Source: a virus | Reading direction: 5' to 3' (one strand) | Length of the DNA: 23,769 nucleotides | IMG/VR virus record: IMGVR_UViG_3300009183_000367 | Span: 1-23,769 of that record | Shown: one piece after another, positions 1 to 7,542 of the stretch | How positions within the stretch are numbered: the stretch's first letter is position 1 | Layout: each line of letters starts with the position of its first letter | Notes under the pieces: generated by a model | Seen by the model: only the letters and a program-made list of their open reading frames with translations | Databases searched by the model: none | Told to the model about the DNA's origin: nothing | Position numbers and translations under genes: made by a program

Positions 1-621
1 CCAGATCGCGTCGGCGATACCAGACGCCTCGTCAAAGATCAACATCATTCCGTCGTGGTTGTGTACACCCGCGTAGGCGTCGGGATTTTCTTCTGACCAG
101 AGTTTGCCTTCCGCTGCCCAGTAGCGCGTCCCTTTCTTTAAGTCGCGCTCGACCAATTCGGTCAGCCACTGCGCCGGTACGATCTTAGTTGCGCTGATTT
201 CCCACCAGTGGCTGTTGATGATCATTGCTTGCCACTTGGTCAGTTCACCCCAGGTAACGGAGCGCAACTGCGCCTCGCTGTTGGCGCTCACGATGACCGT
301 CGAGCCGATCCGAGTAGACAGCATCCACAGGATCAGCCAGCTAACTAACGCCGACTTACCAATACCCCGCCCGCTGGACACCGCCTCGCGCAGCGTGTCC
401 ATGTTGACCTTACCTTCGTTGACTTTGATGTGCTTGGTAATGTCACGCAGTATCTCGCGCTGCCACTTGCGCGGGCCGCTGAACTTAGCTAACGGTGTGT
501 TGGGCTGACCCCAAGGAAACGCGAACAGTACAAACGCTTCAGGATCGTTCGCTATTGCGGGTGACCACAACCGCGTCATCAACGTCTGCTCTTCGGCTGA
601 TGTATAGATCGTTTTTTGCAT
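1..621 (-). CDS. terL: Terminase large subunit, N-terminal part (cut by window edge)
   Basis: This is the ATPase end of the phage DNA-packaging motor. Large terminases drive the genome into the prohead and cut it with a C-terminal nuclease, which lies beyond the window here. The visible 207 codons carry a Walker A motif (SGRGIGKS, about residues 83-90) and a Walker B motif (MMLIFDE, about 192-198), with AFPWG upstream as in many phage large terminases. The chosen start is the ATG at 621. An alternative ATG at 579 (MTRLWSP...) would also fit the family, and neither has a strong Shine-Dalgarno. The gene overlaps the 3' end of the small terminase by 83 bp in another frame, so the two are probably translationally coupled. 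Packaging identity is secure; the exact start is not. Confidence 0.93.
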   Translation of the reverse strand, partial: MQKTIYTSAEEQTLMTRLWSPAIANDPEAFVLFAFPWGQPNTPLAKFSGPRKWQREILRDITKHIKVNEGKVNMDTLREAVSSGRGIGKSALVSWLILWMLSTRIGSTVIVSANSEAQLRSVTWGELTKWQAMIINSHWWEISATKIVPAQWLTELVERDLKKGTRYWAAEGKLWSEENPDAYAGVHNHDGMMLIFDEASGIADAIW

Positions 622-1000
622 TCTCTAACACTCTGGTTTGCGCGGCTTCTAGCGCCTGTGTGATGCTGATCCGCTGATACACATCAACGCTGACTTCCTG
701 CTTGGCCGTCCACTCGTGCCGGTGACGCAGGATCTCTAACGCAGCTTTAGCGTCGCCATTTAACGCCGCGTTATTGAGAACTTGCGAGATCTCTCTTTCA
801 TTGTCAGCGCGGCCTTTTTGTTCAGCCATTTCCGCTAACGGATCTAGCTGACACAGTTGCCGATACTCAGCGGGCAGCATACCAGCAGCCAGCGCCAGCG
901 AGTCACCTTTCAGACCTAACTTCGCCGCGTCATAGATTGACTGAAGGCGAGCCTCTGTTGCCTGAACATTTCTGACAGTTAGTGGCAAAGATTTGAACAT
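539..1000 (-). CDS. terS: Putative terminase small subunit
   Basis: This 153-aa protein lies directly upstream of, and overlaps, the large terminase, the usual place for the DNA-recognition subunit. The N-terminal half is helical and resembles a helix-turn-helix (residues about 20-50, including LKGDSLALAAGMLPAEYRQL). The middle has a helical LNGDAKAALEILRHRHEW segment of the kind seen in small terminases. The ATG at 1000 has no clear Shine-Dalgarno, and the upstream DNA is an A/T-rich stretch followed by a repeat array. By analogy with known phages the protein would bind a cos or pac site nearby, and the repeats at 1093-1305 are an obvious candidate, though that is inference. The call rests on size, helical pattern and synteny. 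Confidence 0.75.
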   Translation of the reverse strand: MFKSLPLTVRNVQATEARLQSIYDAAKLGLKGDSLALAAGMLPAEYRQLCQLDPLAEMAEQKGRADNEREISQVLNNAALNGDAKAALEILRHRHEWTAKQEVSVDVYQRISITQALEAAQTRVLENAKNDLYISRRADVDDAVVVTRNSERS

Positions 1001-1305: not shown

Positions 1306-1462
1306 TTTTTTGACCGGGTAAAAAATTCGCGCTGGGAAAATGCGCGCGGATTTTACGGCCGTCGTCCGCCAAATTTCCCCTATATATAAAACTCAACTTT
1401 TTTCAAAAGTGATATAGCTAACATACGGGTACACCCCGCAAACCCGCGCCAATCCTTGCGAA

Positions 1463-1520
1463 AGTGTGGACACTCGCACGCCAAAAAACGCTCACAAAAC
1501 GCTCACAAAGTGTCCACACT
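1463..1520. repeat. Paired dyads flanking tandem 11-mers, operator/origin-like
   Basis: AGTGTGGACACT (1463-1474) and AGTGTCCACACT (1509-1520) are exact reverse complements. Each is itself an AGTGT-N2-ACACT dyad. Between them are two perfect tandem copies of ACGCTCACAAA (1488-1498 and 1499-1509), which contain the inverted form of the TGTGAGCG element found upstream. The cluster ends 21 bp before the -35 box at 1542, so a bound protein could control the rightward promoter. Confidence 0.75.
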
Positions 1521-1541
1521 CACAAAAGCGCGCGAAACTTG

Positions 1542-1570
1542 TTGACACACACGGCCGAACGTGCGAATAT
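1542..1570 (+). promoter_or_regulatory. Predicted sigma70-type promoter for the small-gene operon
   Basis: A perfect TTGACA (1542-1547) is followed after 17 bp by GAATAT (1565-1570), a 3/6 match to the -10 consensus. Transcription would start near 1577, leaving a leader of about 48 nt before the first gene at 1625. The operator-like dyads immediately upstream suggest regulation. The -35 and spacing are convincing, the -10 is weak. Confidence 0.55.
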
Positions 1571-1624: not shown

Positions 1625-1858
1625 ATGAAGATCAATCTTGAACATACCGACACCTTCGCGGGTGAGTCTAACTATTCATGGGTTCGCCGCGCGACGGTCG
1701 ACGCGCCCGACGCGCTATCGGACCGCGCTATCGTTCGCCGCGCGAAAGCGTGGGCTGGCCTCTCAGGTATCCGCTCACGCGTCGAAAAATTCGGCGACAC
1801 AATCGCCATCCATCCGGCCGGTATCTGCCACGTCGTTTTCGTCACGTTCGGAGAATGA
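1625..1858 (+). CDS. Small conserved-type hypothetical protein (77 aa)
   Basis: This is the first gene after the predicted promoter at 1542. The ATG at 1625 has a good Shine-Dalgarno (GAGGG, 1614-1618, six-base spacing). The product is a compact mixed protein with an arginine-rich helix (RAIVRRAKAWAGL, about residues 34-46) and a hydrophobic C-terminal strand (HVVFVTFGE). No enzymatic motif, signal peptide or membrane segment is present. It is adjacent to three further small genes of similar size, a typical layout for early phage genes that modify host functions. A longer overlapping reading frame beginning at 1638 is not preferred, because it lacks a ribosome site and its N-terminal part is the Ser/Arg-rich shadow of this gene. 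Function unknown. Confidence 0.75.
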   Translation: MKINLEHTDTFAGESNYSWVRRATVDAPDALSDRAIVRRAKAWAGLSGIRSRVEKFGDTIAIHPAGICHVVFVTFGE

Positions 1859-1862
1859 CGCC

Positions 1863-2102
1863 ATGCAAGCAATCGTCACAAAATGGATTGGCCCGACTAA
1901 TCATCGCGGCGACCGTATCAAGGCGACGGCGGCCGCTGGAAGTGTAACGGTCCCATATAAAGGCGGGGCAGATACGCTTGACGCGCATCGCGTCGCGGCC
2001 GTCGCATTCTGCGCGAAATTCGGATGGGATTTTGATCACGTGTCGGGCGACCTGCCCAATGGGTCGCTCGCATGGGTTCGCTTACCAAAAAAAGGGGTTT
2101 AA
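1863..2102 (+). CDS. Small hypothetical protein (79 aa)
   Basis: The ATG at 1863 lies 4 bp after the upstream stop, with GGAG (1850-1853) as ribosome site. The protein begins MQAIVTKWIGPTNHRGDRIK and has a TVPY strand and an alanine-rich helix (HRVAAVAFCAKFGWD). This N-terminal pattern recalls a small protein type I associate with phage and plasmid accessory regions, but I know no function for it. The same frame is open back to 1638; the shorter start is chosen because it follows a ribosome site and avoids the overlap with the 77-aa gene. There are no membrane segments or catalytic motifs. It is probably co-transcribed with its neighbours from 1542. Confidence 0.75.
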   Translation: MQAIVTKWIGPTNHRGDRIKATAAAGSVTVPYKGGADTLDAHRVAAVAFCAKFGWDFDHVSGDLPNGSLAWVRLPKKGV

Positions 2103-2104
2103 TA

Positions 2105-2386
2105 ATGGATTGGATACGCGTTAAAAACGACGTCAACGGCAACTCTCGTTGGGTATGCCATTGGTTGACGTTTAAACCGGCCGCCGATACTTATGAGACC
2201 GCGCTCGCGTTGGCGCGCAAGATTGGCGGGCGCAAGTATCACAATAAACAATACGGCGGTGGCATTGTTTTTCAATGCTACGGCCCCGACGATATCGGCC
2301 CGCATATCGCGCGGGTTCTGGCGCGCGCCAAAACGGCCGACGCTATCGCGCGTCGTGTTATTCCACTAGTTAAGGTGACCACGTGA
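2105..2386 (+). CDS. Small hypothetical protein (93 aa)
   Basis: The chosen ATG at 2105 follows an AGGGG ribosome site and starts three bases after the upstream stop (TAATAATGG junction); an in-frame ATG at 2072 would sit inside the previous gene. The product starts MDWIRVKNDVNGNSRWVCHW, continues with an alanine-rich helix and the basic GGRKYHNKQYGGG segment, and ends in a basic helical tail. The aromatic/basic composition might suit nucleic-acid binding, which is only a guess. It overlaps the next gene by four bases (GTGA). Confidence 0.72.
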   Translation: MDWIRVKNDVNGNSRWVCHWLTFKPAADTYETALALARKIGGRKYHNKQYGGGIVFQCYGPDDIGPHIARVLARAKTADAIARRVIPLVKVTT

Positions 2387-2571
2387 ACCACTACACAGCA
2401 AAATTCAAACGCTACACGGACGAAATGCTGAAAACAGCGTTAGCGGATTGTCACATTGCGCTTGGCGTCGGAGAGACGCTTTTTAGCCCCGCCTACATTG
2501 CAAAATTGTGGGCTGAAATTGACGCGATCCGCGACGTTCAACTTTCACGCAAACCAAAGGCCAAACAATGA
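2383..2571 (+). CDS. Small hypothetical protein (62 aa), GTG start
   Basis: This gene starts at GTG 2383, overlapping the previous stop as GTGA, with AAGGTGA just upstream as ribosome site. The 62-aa product is helical (DEMLKTALADCHIALGV, then AYIAKLWAEIDAIRDV) and ends with a lysine-rich tail (RKPKAKQ). No known domain was recognised. It could be a small DNA-binding or inhibitor protein of the early operon. It overlaps the next micro-ORF as ATGA. Confidence 0.7.
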   Translation: MNHYTAKFKRYTDEMLKTALADCHIALGVGETLFSPAYIAKLWAEIDAIRDVQLSRKPKAKQ

Positions 2572-2739: not shown

Positions 2740-4989
2740 TCATTGTGCCGGGTTATAGTCCGGCTCTACCATCCGACGCAGCGTAGACGCGCCCACGGCC
2801 GCAAGATCGGGCGCGCAGTACACGTGACGCTTAGACTCAAGCCCGCGCGCAGCGACGCGCCCACAATCGATCCAACCCGCCTCTTTAATCGCTTGCAATA
2901 ACGCTTGTTGGTACAGCTTCAAACCGGCCGGGGCCGATCGCGCTAGATCGTCAAGTACAGCTTGCAACGGCGCCGCGATCACGCCACGGGTGAACACACC
3001 CCTACGGGCGCGCATGAGTTCCAGAATGTAACTCTCCGCGCCCGATAGCGAATTTTCCGTCATCGTTTGTTTAAATTCCGTCATCGGCGGAGCCGCGCCC
3101 GGATTGAAGCGACTAACGTCGCGAGCGTGCAACCAAGCCGCCACGGCCGCGCGGCCGCCAGTGCGGAGCCACTGCCAAATCGCGGCGCCATCAGCGTCAC
3201 TCATGCGCCCAACGTGCGACCATATGCAGAACCAACGGCGATCCTGCGCCGATATAGATATAGGCAGTAGGTCATTCGAAAACGCCAGCACGAACCCACG
3301 GTTCGCCATCATATAGGGATGAAGTCCCTTTCGATTCACCGCGAGAACCTCAGGCGGGGCCGCGATGATAGGCTTTAGCTTATTGGCTAGGACGCGCCGA
3401 TCGGCCGCAAGCGCCTCTTTAAGCTCGTTTATAACCAGAATCTCAGACTCTAGTTGATAACCCCACTGGGACGTGAGCGACTCATTGTCAACCAAGCCCA
3501 GATTATGCTTATTGTCCCCGCAGACGGCCCATATAAACGGGTCGTACATCGTATCCTTGCCCGACCCCTCATCCGACGCATGAAGGATCGCGTGATTGAT
3601 CTTGACGCGCGGGTTCTGGACCTTATAAGCCATAACGTCCCATATATGGTCAAGCTCTGACTGTACCGGGACCAACTTGCGGCAATGATCGATCCACGCT
3701 TGTATAGGCCCCGCCATAGGCGTCGGCCGCGCGTCAACCCAACGATTGGCGTATGGCAGGTTATCCCGTACGGCCAAAACCGACTCGCCCGCAGCATAAG
3801 TTAGGCCCGCCAGGATATGGCCGCCCGCGGCCGTTCGGTTCTCGTCAAACCATAGGGACGGGTTGATAATGCGCGCCTTGCCGCCATTGTTGTGCAGCGA
3901 ATGGCACATGATCCCGCGATAGGTCGCGTCGAACGCCCGACGCGATATAAGCACACGGTCTACTAGGTCGAAATAGGCGTCATCCGACTGAACATAGGCA
4001 AACCGTTTGAACCAATCGGCCCGCTCTACCCGCGCCCGCTCGCGCGCCTCGACCTGGGCAATCACGGCCTTAGCGTCATCGGTAAACATCTCCGTAGGCG
4101 TCAGTTTGGATAGCGCGCCGCCCATGACCGACGCGAGCAACTCATCACGTAGGCCATAGGTACGCTTAGGCCCGCCTTGCTCTTCAACCCACGCTAGGAA
4201 CCGCGCGGAGTCCCATTCAATGCAATGCGAATGCAGACAGCAATAAGCCCGCGAAGCGGGCATATAACGGCCCTCTGGATTGCCGTCCGAGTGTTCTGCA
4301 CTGTTAGGGCAGATGACGCCCCACCAGCCCGCAGAGTTGCCTTTCTGTGTGACTTCTTTACGCTCGACAAGCCACGCCAGCACATCATCCGACCCGTCAT
4401 CCTTTAGGACACCGGGACGGAATGTCGTGGTCTCGACCGCGCCGGGAACGACCGATAGAGCGCCGCAGATCTCTTCAAGACTAAACTCGCGCGACGGGTT
4501 GAACTCGACCAAACGCGCAGCAAAACGGCCGCGTCCGGGCTTTAGGTTGATCGAGCCGGGAATGCGAATATTGCGGACCGGATTGATCGCGCCGGGGTCC
4601 GTATAGCCCGCAGCGGCGATGGCCTTGATAGCGGCGCTATAGACGGATTTGTGGGGCTGATCGTCTAGCCGGAAAACGTAACACCATTGAAAGTTATCCT
4701 TCGACGTTTCAATGATCCACGTAGGTCTGATCGTAGGCGTCTTAGATTTAGTCCCGACGTCATCTAACACCAGACACCACACGTTCTCGCAGAACGCAGC
4801 ACCCGCCGACACTCTTTGACCGTCGAACCGCGACTCAATGAACGAGCCGATGTTGACGTACCAAGCGCCTTCACCGCGCGGCTTGCGAAACGCAGGATAG
4901 GCGTAACCGCCCTCACGCTCAACTTGTTTAGTGAATAAAACTACTTCACCCTCTGGCGCGAGGGCTATGATATGATCCACCAGTTCCAT
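2740..4989 (-). CDS. Primase-polymerase / SF3 helicase replication protein
   Basis: This 749-aa protein combines priming and unwinding for phage DNA replication. The N-terminal AEP/RepB-type primase part has LDDVGTK (about residues 75-81), a probable metal-binding acidic motif, and RNIRIPGSINLK (139-150), typical of this primase group. A Cys/His cluster (C227, H233, C250, H253, H255, C256) probably binds zinc. The C-terminal half is a superfamily 3-type helicase: Walker A in DEGSGKDT (473-480), Walker B-like ILVINE (517-522), a motif C asparagine in LAFSND (568-573) and a possible arginine finger DRRW (583-586). The ATG at 4989 has AGGAG upstream. It is the last gene of the leftward replication operon, separated from polA by a hairpin. 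CGGCCG is frequent in this gene and I saw none in polA. Confidence 0.88.
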   Translation of the reverse strand: MELVDHIIALAPEGEVVLFTKQVEREGGYAYPAFRKPRGEGAWYVNIGSFIESRFDGQRVSAGAAFCENVWCLVLDDVGTKSKTPTIRPTWIIETSKDNFQWCYVFRLDDQPHKSVYSAAIKAIAAAGYTDPGAINPVRNIRIPGSINLKPGRGRFAARLVEFNPSREFSLEEICGALSVVPGAVETTTFRPGVLKDDGSDDVLAWLVERKEVTQKGNSAGWWGVICPNSAEHSDGNPEGRYMPASRAYCCLHSHCIEWDSARFLAWVEEQGGPKRTYGLRDELLASVMGGALSKLTPTEMFTDDAKAVIAQVEARERARVERADWFKRFAYVQSDDAYFDLVDRVLISRRAFDATYRGIMCHSLHNNGGKARIINPSLWFDENRTAAGGHILAGLTYAAGESVLAVRDNLPYANRWVDARPTPMAGPIQAWIDHCRKLVPVQSELDHIWDVMAYKVQNPRVKINHAILHASDEGSGKDTMYDPFIWAVCGDNKHNLGLVDNESLTSQWGYQLESEILVINELKEALAADRRVLANKLKPIIAAPPEVLAVNRKGLHPYMMANRGFVLAFSNDLLPISISAQDRRWFCIWSHVGRMSDADGAAIWQWLRTGGRAAVAAWLHARDVSRFNPGAAPPMTEFKQTMTENSLSGAESYILELMRARRGVFTRGVIAAPLQAVLDDLARSAPAGLKLYQQALLQAIKEAGWIDCGRVAARGLESKRHVYCAPDLAAVGASTLRRMVEPDYNPAQ

Positions 4990-5055: not shown

Positions 5056-6912
5056 TTACTTCCCGTATCGGGTCATCTGCTTAACTTCTGCCTTCAGGGG
5101 CAGACCCGCCGCCCACGGCGGTGACGTACACATCACCCGCGCCAATAGGTCGGGGTCTCCGTCCTCTAGGACGATCTCGTCGTGAACGTGGAGCACTACG
5201 TTATCTAGCTGACGTAGCGCGTAGCGCAAGACATCATTGGCGACTGCTTGGGTGATGTTCTCGCAAGCCAAGCCCTTCCATAGACGAGCGCGCGGCCATT
5301 CTTTAGCGTCAGCGGCGGGTTTCCAAGCGGCCTTGCAGTATGAAATGCCATCGTCTTCCAATTTGGCGAACGGGTAACACAGAACGCGGCCCGAAGGAAG
5401 AATGTACCAGAGATGCTGCCGGTCGAATAGATAAGTCACACGCCCCGCGCTGAACTCGGCGTTAGGCGTGTGCATGGCCGACGTGTAGGCCCGCTCCAAC
5501 TCCGACCAGAACCGCACGGCCCATTGATTAGACCGTCGCCAAGCGTCAACCATGCGCCGCGCGTCGGCCTCCGGTAGATGAATACCATAGGCCCGACCCA
5601 TAGCCGCAAACGCGCCCACACCGCCCGCATAGCCGCAACTAAGTTCCTGAACCTTGCCGATCTGACGCTGATCGTCGGTCACCTGATCGACCGAGCACCC
5701 GAAGGTCGCGGCGGCGTTGATCTTATAAATGTCCTGGCTGAACTGCTTGAGCTTTTCCTCGCCCATGCCGGACATCCAAGGATTGACGCGCGCCTCGATA
5801 GCAGACCAATCAGCGACTACGAAATTACCAATAAGCGCGGGTCGGAGCATCCCTTTGAGCACATCTGTAACTCTTCGTCCGTGAAGAGGGACAATTGCTC
5901 GACCGGCAGCCATGTCGTCTCGGACAGTTCCGGGGTCTCTGGCGGTCTTGCGAGTGAAATTGTGAACTTGTGCTCCGTAACTTGAAGCACGCCCAGTAGC
6001 GGACCCCCCAGCAAATACAAATGCACCCCGTACCCTGTCGTCTTCGACATCTGCTAACTCCTGTAAACGCTTAAATTTCGCAATCGAGGACGCCCATAGA
6101 TCGTCCGCGCATTGCACGACTTCACGCACATCTGGGTCTAGGTCATCACACGCCAATAGATTAGCGCGAACGGCCTTGTCGATGCTGTACTTTTCACCGA
6201 CCCACATGAGCTTCTTCTGCTCATCTGTGACGCGCGCCAGCACCCACTCGCGCATTCTTGGCGACCGCACGGCTAGACCGCCAGTAATCTCAGTTACGAT
6301 ACTTTGTATCTCAGCTAGTTCGGCGTCAGCGTAGCGGATAGCGGCTTTACAAAGTGTAATGTCGACCTTTACACCTCGGTCGTTTATACGCTCGTTGACG
6401 TGGTAGTCGAGCAATTCCTCGTCGGACAACTGACGCAGAGCCAAGCTCACGGCGCGCATAGCGCGCACGTCCTGCTCGCAGTACTCGATGAGTTCTGGGA
6501 TTAATTTATCATTGTAGGGCGGGACGCAGCACTGCCGTACAAGGTAGTCGCCCCGGCGGTCCTTTTTCATATCCGCACCGGCAAACCTGCCGACATCCTC
6601 AAGCGACCCCGGCGCGCAATTGGCGCGGGCTTGTGTTGCGGTGCAATAAAACTGCTCAAGATCGAAGTCGATCTGAAGCACGTACCAAAAGATCAGACGC
6701 TCAAACGCGGCGTTGTGCGCGCGGATCTGGCCTTTATGATTCTTTATCGAATCAGGGAATGGTTGATCGGGCGTCCATGTCTGAACGTCGCCATCGTCGA
6801 AAGCGTAGGACATACAGATGACTTCGGTTTCCAAGTCCTGCGCGTAATTATAGACACCCGCGACCCGAAGGTCGCAGGTGCTACGGGTTTCGAAGTCAAC
6901 CCAAAGGATCAC
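5056..6912 (-). CDS. polA: Family A DNA polymerase with 3'-5' exonuclease
   Basis: This 618-aa protein is a phage-type DNA polymerase I that lacks a 5'-3' exonuclease domain. Proofreading motifs are visible: ExoI DFET (6-9), ExoII AHNAAFE (65-71) and ExoIII EYCEQDV (143-149). Polymerase motifs follow: GRASSYG...HNF (about 307-319), motif A DWSAIEAR (368-375, D368 catalytic), motif B with R416, K420 and Y428 in the RQIGKVQELSCGY region, and motif C VHDE (576-579). All key residues are present, so it should be active and replicate the phage genome with the prim-pol next to it. The start is GTG at 6912, immediately after the upstream stop, with a weak AGGG site. Confidence 0.95.
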   Translation of the reverse strand: MILWVDFETRSTCDLRVAGVYNYAQDLETEVICMSYAFDDGDVQTWTPDQPFPDSIKNHKGQIRAHNAAFERLIFWYVLQIDFDLEQFYCTATQARANCAPGSLEDVGRFAGADMKKDRRGDYLVRQCCVPPYNDKLIPELIEYCEQDVRAMRAVSLALRQLSDEELLDYHVNERINDRGVKVDITLCKAAIRYADAELAEIQSIVTEITGGLAVRSPRMREWVLARVTDEQKKLMWVGEKYSIDKAVRANLLACDDLDPDVREVVQCADDLWASSIAKFKRLQELADVEDDRVRGAFVFAGGSATGRASSYGAQVHNFTRKTARDPGTVRDDMAAGRAIVPLHGRRVTDVLKGMLRPALIGNFVVADWSAIEARVNPWMSGMGEEKLKQFSQDIYKINAAATFGCSVDQVTDDQRQIGKVQELSCGYAGGVGAFAAMGRAYGIHLPEADARRMVDAWRRSNQWAVRFWSELERAYTSAMHTPNAEFSAGRVTYLFDRQHLWYILPSGRVLCYPFAKLEDDGISYCKAAWKPAADAKEWPRARLWKGLACENITQAVANDVLRYALRQLDNVVLHVHDEIVLEDGDPDLLARVMCTSPPWAAGLPLKAEVKQMTRYGK

Positions 6913-7542
6913 TTACCCTGCACGACGGCGACGCGTCGGCGCGGGGGCTTCCTGTTCCTCTTCGACGGGGCCATCCATCGACATAAACTCGACGATCTCG
7001 AAGATCGGCGTGTAAATGCGACCGTACGACTTGTGCTGATAGTGCTCTTTCTTAAGCAGCACCACAGGCACGGGCTTCGACTCATCCACCGACACTTGGT
7101 TGGCAAACGCGCTTGCCAGAGCCTCGTAAGAACGCTTACCGCCGACCGAAGTCGTCGAATAGCGCGCCTCTAAGCCCTTGTCTTCGCCCGTCAAACACTT
7201 CAGGCTAAACCCGACTTGCTTCTCCCAACCCCTTGCGGAGTTAGGCGGCGCGTCATCGGTATCGGGCAACGGGTCGGTCAACGCAACCATCTTCTCGCCA
7301 AGCACTACGCCGTCGCCCCAGGCGATCCAACCATGTACGAAACTGAACGGGTTTACGGCCCACTTTGAATCAGGCTCAACTTCAGTCTGATCCGCGCCGA
7401 ACACCCAATGACCGGTCTTGTCCATTTTCAGGATGACCGAGCCAGCAGATGCAGCGGGGGCAGCAACGGTCTTGATGGCCGTTGCGATTGCTGCGAGAGC
7501 GGGAAGACCAGCTTTATTGAAGGCTACTAAATTTGACATCAT
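6913..7542 (-). CDS. Replication-operon protein, possibly ssDNA-binding (209 aa)
   Basis: This gene lies between the Cas4-like nuclease and polA and abuts polA directly. The product starts with a helical alanine-rich segment, has a central beta-rich region with several aromatics (GHWVFGAD, SFVHGWIAWGD, KQVGFSL, HYQHKSYGRIYTPIF), and ends in an acidic patch followed by a basic tail (EEEQEAPAPTRRRRAG). The size, aromatic beta core, charged tail and operon position would suit a phage single-stranded DNA-binding protein. I see no diagnostic OB-fold motif, so this is inference from context. ATG 7542 has an AGGA site (junction AGGATGAAATG) and the upstream stop is one base away, so the genes are coupled. 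Confidence 0.85.
   Translation of the reverse strand: MMSNLVAFNKAGLPALAAIATAIKTVAAPAASAGSVILKMDKTGHWVFGADQTEVEPDSKWAVNPFSFVHGWIAWGDGVVLGEKMVALTDPLPDTDDAPPNSARGWEKQVGFSLKCLTGEDKGLEARYSTTSVGGKRSYEALASAFANQVSVDESKPVPVVLLKKEHYQHKSYGRIYTPIFEIVEFMSMDGPVEEEQEAPAPTRRRRAG

Follow-up and report, generated by a model that had tools for sequence, protein, structure and literature searches.

The window (the whole stretch analysed) is a viral contig from IMG/VR, 23,769 bases long. Its repeat array at positions 1033-1520 is probably a replication origin, and the phage's own AEP-primase/SF3-helicase would read the iterons there through its C-terminal domain. The evidence comes from the anatomy of the array, its conserved geometry, a flip in the orientation of its half-sites, and the co-variation of the array with that C-terminal domain, all observed directly in the sequences compared. 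The preliminary description, which dealt with positions 1463-1524, had suggested an operator or an origin that might loop with the upstream array and control the -35 box; the conserved geometry, the iteron arms flanking an AT-rich stretch, and the co-variation with the primase-helicase speak for the second, as a putative origin. In the mechanism that we infer (binding, melting and origin activity), half-site iterons oppositely oriented on the two sides of the AT-rich stretch (1378-1416) would be read by the primase-helicase (2740-4989) through a winged-helix-like C-terminal domain; the protein would assemble on both arms, melt the AT-rich stretch, and prime synthesis for the phage-encoded PolA, in a phage that appears podovirus-like.

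Gene neighbourhood and anatomy of the array

The intergenic control region with the putative origin (1001-1620) lies between the leftward TerS gene and a rightward early-gene cassette. The TerS-position gene (539-1000, minus strand) is named by its position beside TerL, is without a family match, and is 92-100% identical in the dialect-2 relatives described below; beyond it lies a TerL fragment. The cassette (1625-2571, plus strand; ORFs 1625-1858, 1863-2102, 2105-2386, and 2383-2571) is highly variable among relatives, its slot holding 307 ORFs in 86 clusters across 35 loci. One 199-aa cassette family (11 of 24 dialect-1 and 9 of 11 dialect-2 loci) may, judged by eye, be sliding-clamp-like. 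ORF 2105-2386 matches the Pfam family Phage_TreK, a Staphylococcus phage terminal-repeat protein (E 8e-18); the host of the present phage is probably not Gram-positive. Past the primase-helicase gene come, all leftward, PolA (5056-6912), a gene at 6913-7542 with no match in Pfam that we take, from the gene order, to be DUF2815, and a DUF2800/PD-(D/E)XK gene. The MAG contigs carrying relatives are labelled betaproteobacterium or Rhodoferax, and also actinobacterium and Mucilaginibacter.

The left arm consists of forward half-sites of the form TGTnnnC, mostly in 10-nt steps: TGTACCC and TGTTTGC, 10 nt apart, at 1093-1109 (starting at 1093 and 1103); TGTACCC, TGTACCC and TGTGAGC in 10-nt steps at 1174-1200 (1174, 1184, 1194); TGTACCC and TGTGAGC at 1233-1249 (1233, 1243); and TGTGAGC, TGTACCC and TGTTAGC at 1280-1304 (1280, 1288, 1298), all on the plus strand. 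The AT-rich stretch follows at 1378-1416, a putative unwinding element with a mean column identity of 0.90 in 21 relatives; the AT fraction reaches 0.78-0.80 around 1380-1420, as would suit the AT-rich stretch between the repeats of an origin. The right arm holds reverse half-sites at 1417, 1427, 1490, 1501, and 1512, and opens with the inverted pair TGTTAGC/TGTACCC (1417-1433, minus strand). Counted with a word set picked from the region itself, half-sites are enriched, 21 in these 620 bp versus 9 in 23,149 bp, and the 23.8-kb window, itself a fragment, contains no second array of these words. The GC skew of the window marks no origin, and blastn of 1001-1660 against a phage collection returned chance-level matches only. 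Beside the TerS start, at 1034-1084, stands a block GCGGGGGGTGCG ... GGCCCTACCCGG that is kept in nearly all dialect-1 and dialect-2 relatives.

The two dyads and the tandem 11-mers of the preliminary description are the right arm of this larger array. They are as it had described them: the 12-mers AGTGTGGACACT (1463-1474) and AGTGTCCACACT (1509-1520) are exact reverse complements of each other, each a 5+5 bp dyad around a non-complementary 2-bp centre (GG or CC), and the tandem 11-mer ACGCTCACAAA occupies 1488-1498 and 1499-1509, the final A of the second unit being common to the right dyad (1509). The tandem units also carry, as claimed, the inverse of an upstream element, since TGTGAGCG occurs forward at 1194, 1243, and 1280 and reverse at 1489 and 1500; these five copies (3 forward, 2 reverse) are all that the whole 23.8-kb record holds. 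Among 1000 dinucleotide-preserving shuffles of 1001-1620, one gave a 12-mer together with its exact inverted copy within 60 nt, and an exact tandem 11-mer was equally rare (1/1000). Read as half-sites, this right-hand cluster runs from an outward TGTGGAC within the left dyad (1465-1471, plus strand) across 18 nt to three inverted half-sites with an 11-nt period: TGTGAGC (GCTCACA on the plus strand) at 1490-1496 and again at 1501-1507, both on the minus strand, and TGTGGAC within the right dyad (GTCCACA on the plus strand, 1512-1518).

The dyads had further been placed just ahead of a promoter. A -35-like box of a putative early promoter is indeed found (TTGACA, 1542-1547, plus strand, without a convincing -10), and 33 of 35 loci have a TTGACA downstream of their array; a sigma-70 scan of 950-1700 for -35/-10 hexamers at 16-18 nt found 0 sites, so the TTGACA box by itself now carries the promoter claim. 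Many relatives have a TTAGGGTTTCCCCTAG-type near-palindrome between the right dyad and TTGACA (the equivalents of window 1509-1541).

Repeat dialects on a conserved geometry

Two scans of viral contigs, with the primase and with TerS, yielded 52 and 80 loci respectively, some contigs contributing several of them. Of 21 close relatives, 5 have the exact left 12-mer and 16 have GTGTGGACAC in its stead; the right 12-mer is exact in 15, and the dyads are spaced by 46 nt in all except one (20/21; L056 is the exception). The preliminary description had made conservation of the dyad symmetry in relatives a test of its claim, and the outcome depends on the dialect, that is, on the spelling of the repeats. 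In dialect 1 (half-sites TGTGAGC, TGTACCC, and TGTGGAC) the dyads are among the best-conserved columns: in 21 aligned sequences, the window included, mean column identity reaches 0.93 in both the left dyad and the tandem repeat and 0.96 in the right dyad, versus 0.70-0.73 for the spacer and both flanks. In dialect 2, represented by 12 other loci with the same backbone, a TerS 92-100% identical to that of the window and the repeat TGTYAGCAAT, the place of the dyads is taken by another inverted pair, one without internal dyad symmetry. We therefore dropped the exact dyads as the essential element, because dialect 2 does not keep them.

What both dialects do keep is a spacing. The geometry [TC]GTnnnC-N18-(GnnnACA-N4)x2-GnnnACA is present in 33 of 39 sequences despite different letters (25/27 outside dialect 2 and 8/12 within it, by our own count from the match list), and is absent from L056, L036, L075, L067, L065, and L085. 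Judged from these alignments, the two dyads are the appearance that the half-sites take in the dialect 1 spelling, and the element conserved is the inverted half-site geometry.

The orientation flip was counted around an AT-rich peak sought only at 250-600 from TerS, and with half-site words of our own choosing. The 24 dialect-1 loci have 169 forward and 13 reverse half-sites to the left of the peak and 2 forward and 80 reverse to its right; for the 11 dialect-2 loci the figures are 107 and 0 to the left and 0 and 29 to the right. The flip is weaker or absent in other dialects: D11 has 35 forward and 6 reverse on the left and 10 and 11 on the right, D13 has 0 and 6 on the left and none on the right, and the flip in a D8 locus (L103) is also not clean.

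Farther out, at a TerS identity of 62-73%, the position is filled by other repeats: TGTTGGC, TGTGGACAA, GTGGGGTA, ATGGGTCA, TTCGGCA, TCTCGGCA, TCTCCGCA, TTTGGGC, and more. The labels D1-D14 were set with words chosen after the repeats had been seen (and L107 was wrongly labelled D10 by such words), so that the label-based table of dialects is partly circular and a word-free test was done instead (see below). Two dialect-1 loci (L078 and L088) carry the dialect-2 words TGTAGGCAATGTTAGCAA in the TerS leader, upstream of TerS, which marks a past recombination at the left border. A scan beyond the primase in eight loci gave clear TGTnnnC-type repeats in three (L134, L139, and L142), a GC-rich repeat in L141, a weak one in L137, and none in L135, with too little sequence in L136 and L140. 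Of complete named genomes MW202483 is the nearest (Podoviridae ctNMl277; circular, 38.8 kb; primase 48.7% identical). It has an array of TGTAAAC repeats between leftward late genes and rightward early genes, 28.1-28.8 kb holding 11 copies and the rest of the genome, counted on both strands, 4; the GC skew of this complete genome gives no origin signal. A gene annotated as a homing endonuclease (MW202483.1, 27644-28090) directly adjoins that array. Vibrio phage 1.021.A (primase 27.5% identical) has no array downstream of its primase.

The primase-helicase and its co-variation with the array

The proposed initiator, the primase-helicase (2740-4989, minus strand), combines an AEP/RepB-like N-terminus, an SF3 helicase (DUF5906) and a C-terminal domain. 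In Pfam it matches DUF5906, the RepB primase N-terminus staying below the cut-off, and phmmer against the PDB gave the NrS-1 primase as sole match (E 0.011). With a full-length model of low confidence (pLDDT 63), Foldseek found the C-terminal (SF3) region of NrS-1 (E 2e-7), the AEP domain of S-2L PrimPol (E 1e-5), and RepB' (7e-3). The C-terminal winged-helix-like domain, which we propose as the iteron reader, comprises residues 655-749 (2743-3027, minus strand). Residues 625-749, modelled alone (pLDDT 79.7, pTM 0.69), have the order H-E-H-H-E-E-H of a winged helix, and residues 713-718 join two strands at what would be the wing. The nearest folds are mostly winged-helix domains at Z 5-6.2, weak matches that may reflect only a common arrangement; Foldseek gave no match to this domain at E 0.001 or better, and Pfam only weak ones (GMT-wHTH, best E 0.028, in 6 of 34 members).

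It is this protein that changes together with the array. Where covered, the TerS, TerL, PolA, DUF2815-like, DUF2800 and SNF2 genes of dialect-2 loci are 92-100% identical to those of the window, the primase-helicase only 76-80%; two small ORFs (8658 and 8954) are variable in either dialect. By blocks of 25 residues, cross-dialect identity is 88-100% over residues 1-275 and 41-84% over residues 301-749, and fixed differences between 24 dialect-1 sequences (some partial) and 11 dialect-2 sequences number 0 in residues 1-300, 85 in 301-654, and 34 in 655-749. Among the 34 loci with TerS at least 85% identical there is no mismatch: the 23 with a C-terminal primase domain (PrimC) 88.8-99.3% identical, partial in 5 of them and down to 69 residues, are all dialect 1, and the 11 at 66.4-67.7% are all dialect 2. 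In the word-free test on 69 loci, array words followed the C-terminal domain (partial Mantel r 0.62 given TerS; 0/999 permutations, an optimistic figure because the sequences are related). Over 515 pairs with TerS at least 90% identical, the median array cosine was 0.52 where the C-terminal domain is at least 95% identical (154 pairs) and 0.00 where it is 50-70% identical (179 pairs). Between D4 and D7 (4 and 2 sequences) divergence is concentrated in residues 655-749, with 27 of the 42 fixed differences, and dialect-linked changes occur at residues 713-718 in 6 of 7 comparisons, some of the groups having 1-2 members and D12/D13 being the exception.

The array might instead be an operator with no role in replication, its repeats being bound by a regulator of transcription, either the primase-helicase regulating itself or a different protein; the early promoter (rightward) and the late operon (leftward) would then be under its control. 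We regard this as unlikely, though the divergent intergenic location, the TTGACA that follows the array in nearly all loci, and the helical phasing of the half-sites at 10-11 nt, as in operators, are all in its favour. A regulator encoded in the cassette was sought among the cassette ORFs as reader of the array and none was found: of 21 families present in at least 5 loci none is found throughout one dialect and nowhere in the other, and r2 with dialect is at most 0.46. Outside the cassette, the genes compared across dialects are 92-100% identical apart from the primase-helicase and two small variable ORFs, a comparison that covers the region within the fetched loci, a distant regulator falling outside it.

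Less probable still is that the array and the C-terminal half of the primase travel together by linkage only, as one recombination block of about 3 kb, which would make their co-variation uninformative about binding. Plain linkage does explain part of the association, since the array is only about 1.2 kb from the 3' end of the primase gene and cassettes are shared mostly within dialects (sharing is 0.28 among dialect-1 loci, 0.47 among dialect-2 loci, and 0.04 across the two). Yet even loci of one dialect exchange cassettes (among dialect-1 loci the median sharing is 0.13), some segments have crossed between dialects (408 bp of L025, 92% identical to L010; also in L030 and L085, and in pieces in L035), and this exchange leaves the pairing intact in 34 of 34 close loci. 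Moreover, the breakpoint in the primase differs between swaps, near residue 300 for D1/D2 and near 655 for D4/D7, and in the array the letters change while the spacing is kept. One locus does break the pairing: L120 has a ATGGGTCA-type array with a C-terminal domain 98-100% identical to that of GTGGGGTA-type phages (six loci); L119 matches its array region at 84%, and the other group matches its flanks at about 86-96%. A recombination may have left L120 with a mismatched pair, or its assembly may be chimeric, the contig being not obviously broken; the locus counts against a strict pairing of array and domain. A packaging (pac/cos) or TerS-recognition site, to which the position of the array directly upstream of the TerS start codon might point, is hardly credible and was discarded: TerS shows no change with the dialect, being 97-100% identical between many dialect-1 and dialect-2 phages with different arrays.

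Known systems and biological meaning

SaPIs have iteron arms around an AT-rich stretch; phage P4, a satellite that uses the host polymerase, has iterons at ori and two cis regions, ori and crr; and geminiviruses are ssDNA viruses with an unrelated initiator. The C-terminal domains of SaPI Rep and SCCmec Cch2 bind origin repeats (PMC7581432), and by analogy the phage described here would likewise have a helicase whose C-terminal domain recognises short origin repeats near its own gene; SaPI5 Rep, according to the same source, resembles it further in joining primase and helicase (PMC7581432). As in SaPI-type Rep/ori systems an SF3/AAA+ helicase is present, judged from DUF5906 and from the NrS-1 SF3 and AEP folds, and SaPI PriRep1 (7pds) is a weak Foldseek match to the primase-helicase (E 0.28). 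The SaPI origin is directly downstream of rep; here the array is on the downstream side, but the cassette of about 1 kb (1625-2571) intervenes. Unlike the SaPIs, moreover, this is a tailed phage with its own PolA, and its dialects differ between near-identical phages.

A parallel is found in PLE, the satellites of Vibrio cholerae phages, for which it is reported that the origin and the DNA-binding domain of RepA co-vary while the rest is conserved, that swapping recurs, and that exchanges proved cognate pairing, its authors proposing that an origin-directed phage nuclease selects for the swapping (PMC8263062). The RepA DNA-binding domain is N-terminal and that proposed for the phage C-terminal, and cognate pairing is experimental in PLE and suggested here by sequence co-variation. 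In contrast to the protein described here, PLE RepA is characterised as having no predicted primase or helicase activity; the same source presents the alpha protein of the phage satellite P4 as a fusion of primase and initiating helicase, like the present one (PMC7145576). The SF3 region of the NrS-1 phage primase-polymerase is the best PDB match by sequence as well as by fold (see above); its genome, however, has two copies of an 8-nt recognition sequence and not an iteron array (PMC7102993). Iteron divergence among close relatives also recalls the geminiviruses, in which closely related viruses often have different iterons read by a cognate Rep (PMC12548392).

The principle of a co-varying origin and initiator is thus already known; what is new is to meet it in a family of tailed phages that encode a primase-helicase and PolA of their own, and in many dialects built on a single scaffold. 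Our literature search, with subscription journals mostly outside its coverage, found no account of the origin of this phage family. The spelling of the array repeats and the DNA-binding tail of the primase-helicase look like a lock-and-key pair that has been repeatedly re-cut in evolution. More tentatively, we may be seeing a natural diversification of origin types: at least 12 iteron dialects on a conserved scaffold, with matching C-terminal domains, switched by recombination with variable breakpoints or by a few substitutions around the wing (713-718), and probably selected against origin-directed attack or against cross-replication by co-infecting relatives. If so, the natural series could be read as a code that connects wing residues with iteron letters. 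If the origin reading is right, dozens of origin/initiator swaps made by nature, in backgrounds that are nearly identical, are available in this uncultured freshwater phage family, and matched and mismatched pairs would be amenable to testing on plasmids. Two questions would then become testable: by what means a winged-helix domain attached to a helicase recognises the repeats of an origin, and what drives phages to respell their origins again and again, be it origin-targeting defence, satellites, or competition in co-infection.
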